Assembly (NCBI RefSeq): GCF_900110215.1
Contig: NZ_FOCX01000001.1
Span: 124,001-188,000, forward strand
Direction: 5' to 3'
DNA: 64,000 bases
DNA from: Halorientalis persicus
Lineage (GTDB): Archaea > Halobacteriota > Halobacteria > Halobacteriales > Haloarculaceae
Shown here: positions 1,562 to 7,282 of the stretch, one piece after another
Layout: every line of letters starts with the position of its first letter
Position numbering within the stretch: position 1 is the stretch's first letter
The notes under the pieces: model-generated
Seen by the model: only the letters and a program-made list of their open reading frames with translations
Databases searched by the model: none
What the model was told of the DNA's origin: nothing
Position numbers and translations under genes: made by a program

Positions 1562-1747
1562 GGCCCACCCACCGCAGGGAAAGGTGAAGTGCGTTTCGTC
1601 GCCGCCGGGACCTGCTCGTTACGTGTCACGACGGTAGGTATATGACGCGAAGGCCGCTACGTCCAGCCGTATCCATGGGTGCGTTCATGGAGACATCATC
1701 ATCACGCGGTTCACATCATCGCCCCTACCCGGGGCAGTTCACCAGCT

Positions 1748-3091
1748 ATGCACGATTCAGCGAAATACTTGATTCACGCGGACATCGTCGCCGACGGGGT
1801 GGTAGAGCGGAGTGACGTCGTCGGTGCGGTGTTCGGACAGACAGAGGGATTGCTCGGCAGCGAACTCGACCTCCGAGCGTTACAGGAGTCCTCGAAGGTC
1901 GGCCGGATCGACGTCGAGATCGAGTCGGAGGGCGGCCGCTCCTACGGCGAGGTGACCATCGCCAGCGGCCTCGACAAGGTCGAGACCGCGATTCTCGCGG
2001 CCGCCCTGGAGACCATCGACCGGGTCGGCCCGTGCCGGGCGGACTTCCAGGTGTCGAAACTGGAGGACGTGCGCGCGGCCAAACGCCGCGAGGTCGTCGA
2101 GCGGGCGACGGACCTGCTCGCCGAATTCGAGGGCGAAGTCGCCCGGAGCGCGGACCTCGTCGAGGAGGTCCGCCAGGCAGTCCGGGTCGAGGACATCACC
2201 GAGTACGAGGGCCTGCCGGCCGGGCCCCGCGTCAGCGACAGCGACGCCATCATCGTCGTGGAGGGGCGGGCCGACGTACTCCAGTTGCTGAAGTACGGCA
2301 TCAAAAACGCCGTCGCCGTCGAGGGCACCGACGTGCCCGAGGCCGTCGCGGATCTCACGTGCAGGCGGACGGTGACCGCCTTCTTCGACGGCGACCGCGG
2401 TGGCGACCTCATCCTCAAGGAACTCGGGCAGGTCGGCGAGGTGGATTACGTCGCCTTCGCCCCCGAACACCGCTCGGTGGAGGACCTGGCGCGCGACGAA
2501 GTGATGACCGCGCTCCGTGAGAAGGTCCCGATGGAAGCCGTCGCGGGGGCAAGCTCGCCCCACGAGACCGTCGCGGCGACCGACGGGAGCGCCCGCCCCG
2601 CGCCGCCGGAGACGGCCGACGAACCCGAATCGACCGCGACAGCGGACGCGAGTGGGACGGCATCGGCCGAGCAGTGTGAGGGCGCGACGGTGGACGCCAC
2701 GAGGACCGACGACGACTCGGCCGACGATGGCGACGCGGCAGCAACCGACGACGCCACGACGCCGGCCGACAATGACGACACCGCGGACGCGCCGGCCGCC
2801 CCGGAGACACTGGCTGGCCACGTCGAGGCAGTCGTCGACGCGGACAGCGGCGAGGTCGTCCTGCTGGACAGTGAGTTTCAGGAGCTCGCGTCGGCCCCCG
2901 CGAGCGAGGCGTTCGACACCGTCGCCGACGCCGACGTGACGCCGACGACGGTCGTCCTCGACGGGGAACTCGACCAGCGGGTGCTCGACGTGGCCGCCCA
3001 GCGCGGCGTCGAACAGATCGTCCCGCGATCGACCGGCGAGTTCGTCAAGCAACCCACCGGCGTCCGCATCCGGACGGCCGATCAGTTCTGA
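1748..3091 (+). CDS. dnaG: Archaeal DnaG primase-like protein (Toprim domain)
   Basis: Archaeal DnaG, a Toprim-domain protein with primase activity in vitro that is also a component of the RNA-degrading exosome. Seen: conserved N-terminal region starting KYLIHADIVADGVVERSDVVG, Toprim core at about residues 165-240 with IVVEGRADV (invariant Glu) and FFDGDRGGD (DxD), then an acidic Ala/Thr/Asp linker (about residues 260-350) and a small C-terminal domain ending in VRIRTADQF. I take the ATG at 1748; an upstream in-frame start at 1679 adds a His-rich segment foreign to the family. The long acidic linker is typical of haloarchaeal versions. The 3' end overlaps the convergent acetyltransferase by 10 bp. 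Confidence 0.95.
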   Translation: MHDSAKYLIHADIVADGVVERSDVVGAVFGQTEGLLGSELDLRALQESSKVGRIDVEIESEGGRSYGEVTIASGLDKVETAILAAALETIDRVGPCRADFQVSKLEDVRAAKRREVVERATDLLAEFEGEVARSADLVEEVRQAVRVEDITEYEGLPAGPRVSDSDAIIVVEGRADVLQLLKYGIKNAVAVEGTDVPEAVADLTCRRTVTAFFDGDRGGDLILKELGQVGEVDYVAFAPEHRSVEDLARDEVMTALREKVPMEAVAGASSPHETVAATDGSARPAPPETADEPESTATADASGTASAEQCEGATVDATRTDDDSADDGDAAATDDATTPADNDDTADAPAAPETLAGHVEAVVDADSGEVVLLDSEFQELASAPASEAFDTVADADVTPTTVVLDGELDQRVLDVAAQRGVEQIVPRSTGEFVKQPTGVRIRTADQF

Positions 3092-5186: not shown

Positions 5187-5795
5187 GTGGGCATTTACGA
5201 CCGGTACCTCGCGGTCCGAACCCAGTGGGCCGACGAGGAGACGCCCGACAACGTCGCCGTCGTCATCACCGAGCGGGACCTGCTGGAGCAGGGCGCCTAC
5301 GACACCCTGGAGTCGTTTTTCGACTGGGCCGTCGAGTACGGTGCCGAGCGAGTCATGGTCTACGTCTCCGTCCTCGACGAGGAGGCCGTGCCGACGCTCC
5401 GGCGCGCGCTCGAAGACGTTGACGCCCCCCGCGAGATGGCCGTTCGCGGCCCCGACGACGACCAGCGAGCCGACGCACCCATTCAGGTGAGCATCGGTCT
5501 CGGCGGCAAACACGAGTTCGCCGCCGCCGTTCGGAGCGTCGCCGAGGAAGTCGACGACGGCGAGTTGACCCCCGGCGAGATCGACGAGGACGACATCGAG
5601 GAGCGGCTGGTCTTCCCGACCGATCCCGACCTCGTCATCAAGACCGGGGCCGAGCGGCTCTCGGATTTCATGATCTGGCAGTCGGTTTACTCCGAACTCT
5701 ACTTCACCGACGTGAACTGGCGTGACTTCCGGAAGCGGGAGTATCTCCGGGCGATCCGGGACTTCCAGGACCGCCAGCGGAGATTTGGCCAGTAG
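5187..5795 (+). CDS. Short cis-prenyltransferase-family protein lacking the catalytic Asp (Nus1/NgBR-like)
   Basis: A 202-residue protein, GTG start. The C-terminal half carries the UPP synthase signature: DLVIKTGAERLSDFMIWQ then SVYSELYFTDVNWRDFRK (about residues 148-181), matching the RTGG-E-R-S-NF-W-Q-ELYFTD block of the family. The N-terminal half lacks the substrate-binding Asp motif (MDGNGRWA/QDGNRR) present in the neighbouring full-length gene. This is the division of features seen in heteromeric cis-prenyltransferases (catalytic DHDDS plus NgBR/Nus1; also two-subunit methanogen enzymes). I infer it is the accessory subunit of the uppS product. The stop codon sits inside a hairpin loop (5783-5802). 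Confidence 0.82.
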   Translation: MGIYDRYLAVRTQWADEETPDNVAVVITERDLLEQGAYDTLESFFDWAVEYGAERVMVYVSVLDEEAVPTLRRALEDVDAPREMAVRGPDDDQRADAPIQVSIGLGGKHEFAAAVRSVAEEVDDGELTPGEIDEDDIEERLVFPTDPDLVIKTGAERLSDFMIWQSVYSELYFTDVNWRDFRKREYLRAIRDFQDRQRRFGQ

Positions 5796-5941
5796 GCCAA
5801 ATTACGTCGGGGAGCGACCGGTGGGAGCGGACCGACGGCGGTTTGGACAGTGACCGCAGGGAACTGTCCAAACGCCGGCAGTCGAGCGAAGCGAGTCTGC
5901 CGGAAGTTCGGCGAGTAGGCCGGATCACGTCGGAAAGCGAC
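5783..5941. repeat. Hairpins plus an imperfect 33-bp direct repeat
   Basis: Hairpin 5783-5802 (8-bp arms, 4-nt loop containing the start of the TAG stop codon of the upstream gene), hairpin 5841-5873 (11-bp arms, 11-nt loop) and hairpin 5875-5903 (7-bp arms). The block 5786-5818 recurs at 5909-5941 with 26 of 33 positions identical, the shared core being AGTAGGCC and ACGTCGG. The duplicated block and palindromes resemble a degenerate intergenic repeat element. It fills almost all of the 189-bp gap before the next gene. Confidence 0.7.
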
Positions 5942-5984
5942 ACCGACGCATACTACTAAGTTTCCCGATGCTGAACTGTCAACT

Positions 5985-6308
5985 ATGGAAATAGATCAGG
6001 AAGACCTCACGGGTGCGGTCGTGCTTGTCTTGCTCGCCGTGGCGCTGGGTCTCGTCGTGGCCGGAGTGGAAACCGTGGCGGGATTCGATGTCCTCGCGGC
6101 GGGCGAATCCGCGGTCGGATACCTCGCGGCCGGAAACTTCAGCGTCGGCGTCCTCTCGACCGGCATCTTCTCGGTCGGGATCTTCGCCGCGGGGATCTTC
6201 TCGGTCGGGGTGTTCTCGATCGGCGTGTTCTCGATCGGGATCTTCTCGTTCGGGATCTACGCCGCGGGCCTGTACGCGGCACAGCGTCACGTCAGGTCGA
6301 ACGGGTAG
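5985..6308 (+). CDS. Small membrane protein built of glycine-periodic five-residue repeats
   Basis: A 107-residue hydrophobic protein. After a first helix (about residues 10-30) come at least ten five-residue units of the type G-(I/V)-F-S-(V/I) or G-(I/L)-Y-A-A, from about residue 45 to 97, ending in a basic tail (QRHVRSNG). A strict period of five with Gly at one position and alternating large hydrophobics suggests a pentapeptide-like solenoid or a Gly-packed membrane structure rather than ordinary helices. A TATA-like element (5950-5960) lies about 30 nt before the ATG. Function unknown; the fivefold repeat is plain in both DNA and protein. Confidence 0.8.
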   Translation: MEIDQEDLTGAVVLVLLAVALGLVVAGVETVAGFDVLAAGESAVGYLAAGNFSVGVLSTGIFSVGIFAAGIFSVGVFSIGVFSIGIFSFGIYAAGLYAAQRHVRSNG

Positions 6309-6349
6309 GACCGACTCGCGCCGGGTGAGCGGTTCGCACGGGATGGCCC

Positions 6350-7282
6350 TCAGTCCGCGGCGGGTTCCAGTTCTGCCTCGAACTCCTCTTCGTCGAGTCG
6401 TTCGCGCTCGCTACTGGGCAGTGCGTCCCGGAACCGGCCGAGGATCGACCGGGCCTCGTCGAGTTCGGCGCTGCCCATCGCCCGAACCAACGCCAGCGCG
6501 CGCCTGGCGCGGGCGGTCCGCCAGGACTCCTCGCGGGACTCGTAGGTCCGGATCGCACGCAGGAAGTCGACTTTCCGGAACTCCGGCCAGTAGGGTGTAC
6601 AGAAGAAGACAGCGGCCTCGTTACCGTTGGCGTGCCAGGGCAGGAAGTTGCTGGTGCGTTCGGCCCCGCCGGTCCGGAGGATCAGATCCACGTCGCGGGA
6701 TGGTCCTTCGTAGAGACGCTCTTCGACGGTCTCGGCGTCGATCTCGTCGGGATCGAGGTCGCCGTAGACCACGTCGCGGGCCACGTCGCGGGCGGCCCCG
6801 AGCAGTTCCGCGCGGCCGCCGTAGGCCAGCGCGATGTTCAACTGGAGTTCGTCGTAGTCGCGGGTGCGCCCCTCGGCGTACTGGATGGCGGTGCGGACCC
6901 GCCCGGGGAGGTCCTGGGTCTCGCCGATGGCCCGGATCCGCACTTCGCCCTCGTGGACGCGGTCGGCGTCGGCGAACTCGTAGAGCTTCTCCTCGATCAG
7001 GTCGAAGAGGGCCTCCCGCTGGTTGACCGGGCGGTCGAAGTTCTCCGTCGAGAAGGTGTAAAGCGTTAGCTCCTGGACGCCGAGTTCGTCACACCAGTTG
7101 AGCATGGCCTCGGTCGTCTCGGCACCGGCGCGATGGCCTTCCGTGGCTCCCTCGCCCTTGTTCCGGGCGTATCGACGATTCCCGTCCTGAATGACGGCGA
7201 CGTGATCGGGCATCCCCGACAGCTCCCACCGTAACAGCCGTTCGTACCCCGACAGCGCCTGCTGGCGCACCCACGCGAGCAT
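6350..7282 (-). CDS. uppS: Cis-prenyltransferase / (di)trans,poly-cis-polyprenyl diphosphate synthase (catalytic)
   Basis: A 310-residue UPP synthase-family enzyme that elongates an allylic diphosphate with isopentenyl diphosphate to make the long-chain polyprenyl lipid carrier (dolichol precursor) used in S-layer and lipid glycosylation. Seen: HVAVIQDGNRRYARNKG with the catalytic Asp33, LTLYTFSTENFDRP, and DLILRTGGAERTSNFLPWH at about residue 200. The block after it (NEAAVFFCTPYWPEF) departs from the canonical ELYFTD, whereas the short neighbour at 5187 keeps ELYFTD, so the two proteins complement each other. ATG at 7282 is chosen: a promoter lies about 27 nt upstream, and the longer frame overlaps the divergent cold-shock gene. 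Confidence 0.92.
   Translation of the reverse strand: MLAWVRQQALSGYERLLRWELSGMPDHVAVIQDGNRRYARNKGEGATEGHRAGAETTEAMLNWCDELGVQELTLYTFSTENFDRPVNQREALFDLIEEKLYEFADADRVHEGEVRIRAIGETQDLPGRVRTAIQYAEGRTRDYDELQLNIALAYGGRAELLGAARDVARDVVYGDLDPDEIDAETVEERLYEGPSRDVDLILRTGGAERTSNFLPWHANGNEAAVFFCTPYWPEFRKVDFLRAIRTYESREESWRTARARRALALVRAMGSAELDEARSILGRFRDALPSSERERLDEEEFEAELEPAAD

Follow-up and report, generated by a model that had tools for sequence, protein, structure and literature searches.

Described cis-prenyltransferases are the product of either one gene or two. In the one-gene enzymes, the arginine of an RxG motif coordinates Mg2+ via water, while the backbone of its glycine holds the beta-phosphate of the acceptor (PMC8131916). 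The homodimeric bacterial UppS, represented by E. coli IspU, carries this motif as an RRFG tail together with the catalytic DGN motif in a single gene. In the human enzyme, the catalytic, DGN-bearing DHDDS subunit relies on a partner, the inactive NgBR, whose tail ends in RxG and reaches over the interface to complete the active site of DHDDS; pairing with NgBR raises the activity of DHDDS about 400-fold (PMC7573591). The yeast counterpart combines Rer2 or Srt1 with Nus1, and Nus1 is without a canonical RxG (PMC7573591). The noncatalytic subunits of such DHDDS-type enzymes show family likeness in the C-terminus only (PMC7839719). Among archaea, MM_0618 and MM_1083 of Methanosarcina mazei together make up a heteromeric cis-prenyltransferase with C45-50 products that serve a glycosyl carrier lipid (Emi et al. 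2019, as cited in PMC8131916), and MM_0014 is an active homodimer with TLGG in place of RxG (PMC8131916). For haloarchaea, we found no report of a heteromer or of the biochemistry of the proteins described here in the literature searched, with most subscription papers outside its reach.

Two PF01255 genes with complementary motifs

The window, that is the whole 64,000-nucleotide stretch that was analysed, contains two genes of the PF01255 family, and a search of the whole genome recovered these two only, with no one-gene cis-prenyltransferase among them. The long gene (6350..7282, minus strand, ATG start) encodes a UppS/DHDDS-like protein of 310 aa that covers the entire PF01255 profile (E = 2e-66). 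Its full catalytic and substrate-binding set consists of DGN (residues 33-35, codons at 7178..7186, minus strand), FSTEN and RTGGAERTSNF (pattern RTGG...R.SNF), in agreement with the original prediction of a catalytic DGN motif with Asp33 and a normal RTGG block. At the position of RxG, the aligned sequence reads SREESWR and then runs on into a helical C-terminal extension of about 60 residues, so that the protein has no RxG tail. The VFFCTPYW segment, which had been called odd, is no peculiarity of this protein and was dropped as such: the cysteine is found in 48 of 53 long proteins across the phylum, and FFCTPYW is what long proteins normally have at this place.

The short gene (5187..5795, plus strand) opens with a GTG start that is consistent with the common N-terminus of its family and encodes an NgBR/Nus1-like protein of 202 aa, which is 99% identical to its H. 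regularis counterpart, placing the genome near Halorientalis. It matches PF01255 with an E-value of 4.5e-27 at profile positions 115-219 only, and this restriction to the C-terminal half is exactly the pattern of the noncatalytic DHDDS-type subunits (PMC7839719). It had been described as lacking the catalytic Asp motif and keeping the segment ELYFTDVNW, and this is what the alignment shows: T28-E29-R30 stands at the place of DGN, that of FSxEN is degenerate, and ELYFTDVNW occupies residues 170-178. According to the alignment and the model, the short protein lacks a portion of the stretch that, in complete enzymes, forms the wall of the chain tunnel; this role of the stretch is established for the cis-prenyltransferase family. 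The C-terminus reads ...DRQRRFGQ and aligns with the RRFG tail of E. coli UppS (IspU), and the codons of R198-R199-F200-G201, which include the RxG motif R199-F200-G201, lie at 5778..5789 on the plus strand. By analogy with NgBR, this tail is predicted to reach into the active site of the long subunit (PMC7573591). The presence of an RxG tail on the short protein and its absence from the long one is the strongest sign at this locus and had been overlooked in the original prediction. A membrane-anchored N-terminal extension of the NgBR/Nus1 type is missing from the short protein: about 20 residues precede the first strand of its cis-prenyltransferase domain, and they include no hydrophobic segment.

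The two genes are convergent and do not form one operon. Between them lies a gene (5985-6308, plus strand) for a 107-aa protein with repeated FSVGIF-type units (GLTT repeat, PF01744), for which phmmer gave no match in 80 named haloarchaeal loci. Elsewhere around the pair we noted a tandem pair of closely alike 64-aa cold-shock domain proteins (PF00313; 7388-7582 and 7585-7779, plus strand) and a DnaG-like Toprim-domain protein (1679-3091, plus strand) with a long acidic Ala/Thr/Asp-rich stretch ahead of its C-terminal part.

The motif split holds across haloarchaea and the wider phylum

The distribution of the two motifs was followed in a haloarchaeal sample made up of the 80 named loci and the window. 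A C-terminal RxG was present in 81/81 short proteins and DGN in 0/81, and DGN was present in 67/68 long proteins, the single exception being a 219-aa fragment; with counts of this kind the split is not due to chance. Among representatives from the whole phylum, the short proteins had an aligned [RK]xG in 46 of 46 cases (Arg in 44) and DGN in none, and the long proteins had DGN in 53 of 53 and an aligned RxG in none, although three long proteins from the methanogen side contain an unaligned RxG close to the tail. The RRFG ending persists even in three highly divergent short proteins, 164-196 aa in length. In the same alignment, E. coli UppS has both DGN and RxG. The active-site halves that a one-gene enzyme combines are divided between two genes, with no exception in the sampled phylum. 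Neither protein of the pair carries DGN and RxG on one chain, as a homodimeric UppS does. Instead, as in a heteromer, we find a catalytic PF01255 subunit with DGN and the substrate-binding residues and a second subunit of PF01255 fold that lacks the catalytic Asp and resembles the family mainly in its C-terminal half, with the RxG tail on the noncatalytic subunit and none on the catalytic one.

These counts bear on two other explanations. The long protein might work on its own as a UppS-like homodimer, with the short protein being a diverged paralogue that does something else, for example regulation. Every catalytic and substrate-binding residue does sit in the long protein, and both the lack of a canonical RxG in Nus1 and the activity of homodimeric MM_0014 with TLGG (PMC8131916) mean that a long protein without RxG is not proof of inactivity alone. 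However, an aligned RxG is found in 0/53 long proteins, while the short family keeps exactly this motif at its extreme end, and the two genes co-occur near-universally and are frequently adjacent (see below), and we consider a self-sufficient long enzyme unlikely. The second explanation, in which the short protein would be an independent, truncated enzyme with altered chemistry that acts as a homodimer, draws on its core fold and on the R157-L-S block that it keeps. It is scarcely credible, as the short protein lacks the Asp, Asn and Arg of the DGN loop as well as FSxEN and the Arg after it, and as the tunnel region is shortened in all members of its family.

The two genes co-occur and are often convergent neighbours

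At least two PF01255 genes were detected in 291 of 292 Halobacteria, and the short gene was found in 97 of the 97 Halobacteria in which we looked for it. In the wider phylum (197 genomes), 187 genomes have at least two copies, four have one and six have none, which means that both subunits are missing together in these six. Within family f18, a PF01255 gene is absent from all five of the genomes G298, G307, G316, G325 and G332. Copy number can also be higher: in the haloarchaeon G195 the complete pair occurs twice (at L221 and L230), which suggests joint duplication or transfer of the pair, and a second long gene beside a single short one is present in at least two genomes. In another haloarchaeon (G002, L233:1489-3354, minus strand) we observed a third, highly diverged PF01255-like ORF, in which DGH replaces DGN and the tail is unusual. 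In the tree, the short genes form one clade (SH-aLRT 99); since this was a quick search with long branches (the three very divergent short proteins and one odd paralogue), the deep order and the root are unsure.

Wherever a haloarchaeal long gene lies no more than 8 kb from the short gene, the two are convergent (67/67 loci, with a median gap of 153 bp), and convergent adjacency also occurs in eight non-haloarchaeal families (f14, f21, f22, f23, f25, f28, f29 and f30). Whereas the haloarchaeal pair thus mostly consists of convergent neighbours, the sampled pairs of f13, the family with MM_0014-like genes, are far apart. The sampled genomes that hold a TLGG-tailed MM_0014-like gene have, in addition, a single gene of the present short family and one or two of the long family, and by elimination the M. 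mazei pair is therefore very likely orthologous to the long and short families. That pair likewise consists of two PF01255 genes, which give one enzyme (as cited in PMC8131916), and comes from the same archaeal phylum as the present genes.

On its other side, the short gene has a conserved divergent neighbour, which in the window is a gene for an integral membrane protein of the DUF92 family (PF01940; 3507..4898, minus strand, start codon inferred). DUF92 occupies this place in 69 of 80 haloarchaeal loci. Outside the haloarchaea, where 18 genomes with one DUF92 gene each were sampled, it does so in 8, and G306 and G315 have the same three-gene order as the window. The proposed link between the DUF92 neighbour and the pair is supported as conserved synteny. 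With one DUF92 gene per about 1-4 Mb, chance would be expected to place it beside the short gene in well under 1% of genomes.

Structural models of both proteins adopt the cis-prenyltransferase fold

In AlphaFold2 single-chain models, the short and the long protein (pLDDT 86.6 and 79.4, respectively) adopt the cis-prenyltransferase fold. The short model aligns with the NgBR chain with Z 13.5 over 177 of 198 residues and fits catalytic cis-prenyltransferases equally well. The long model aligns with DHDDS with Z 25.1 over 245 residues, and with bacterial enzymes alike. Judged from these models, the fold alone would leave the pairing partners undecided. The C-terminal extension of the long protein, which tends to be longer in the haloarchaeal members of the family, is predicted with modest confidence to form helices at residues 275-287 and 290-305. 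These do not align with the C-terminal helices of DHDDS, where a helix-turn-helix serves tetramer formation: the model shows no alignment to DHDDS past residue 262, and the sequence of the extension gave no DHDDS match when searched alone. We therefore do not claim a shared tetramer architecture.

Discussion

Taken together, the motif split, the near-universal co-occurrence, the lack of a one-gene enzyme in the genome, the fit to NgBR and the M. mazei precedent support the earlier proposal of a heteromer. We put at roughly 0.88 the probability that the products of the two genes share an active site as the subunits of a single heteromeric cis-prenyltransferase, whose product is the polyprenyl diphosphate from which dolichyl phosphate, the long lipid that brings sugars to proteins, is derived. 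In such an enzyme, the long protein would bind the allylic diphosphate and IPP and catalyse chain growth by means of its DGN, FSTEN and RTGG motifs. The short protein, from which the loop with the catalytic aspartate and a large part of the chain-tunnel region have been lost, would be inactive alone and would take the place that the second monomer has in homodimers, bound to the long protein. Its C-terminal RRFG tail would be lent across the interface into the long active site, where the arginine and glycine may help to hold Mg2+ and the diphosphate of IPP, so that activity would need both subunits. The pair would thus resemble DHDDS/NgBR in having a catalytic DGN subunit that is completed by its partner, and it shares fold, catalytic residues and the RRFG tail with IspU, unlike the pair a one-gene enzyme.

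A heteromer whose product or purpose is something other than dolichyl phosphate, for example membrane polyprenols, is very unlikely. Product length and use are not readable from sequence; against such a product, haloarchaea N-glycosylate on dolichyl phosphate, and this pair comprises the only PF01255 proteins of the genome. The M. mazei heteromer is likewise tied to a glycosyl carrier lipid (as cited in PMC8131916).

The function of DUF92 is a lead only. The family is linked to prenol or phytyl-phosphate kinases (VTE6), and the neighbour in the window is a candidate polyprenol or polyprenyl-phosphate kinase. Dolichol kinase homologues have been reported from few prokaryotes only (PMC5088576). 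More tentatively, DUF92 and the short and long genes may constitute a dedicated dolichyl-phosphate module that is kept across the phylum, with DUF92 as the archaeal polyprenol or polyprenyl-phosphate kinase and with a two-gene enzyme that goes back to a duplication and complementary losses earlier than the diversification of the phylum, either as the ancestor of the eukaryotic split or in parallel to it; we regard this scenario as possible but rather doubtful.

The proposed dolichyl-phosphate heteromer is a well-supported further member of a kind already reported from M. mazei, with a range that takes in practically every one of the Halobacteria and a large share of the phylum. The matched genes come under generic labels of the UppS type. 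The DUF92 neighbour offers a testable candidate for the missing kinase step. Should the two proteins indeed be one enzyme, studies of how archaea make dolichol would have to express the two genes together, and soluble, salt-stable archaeal pairs could then be simple models of human DHDDS/NgBR, an enzyme in which a mutation in RxG leads to disease.
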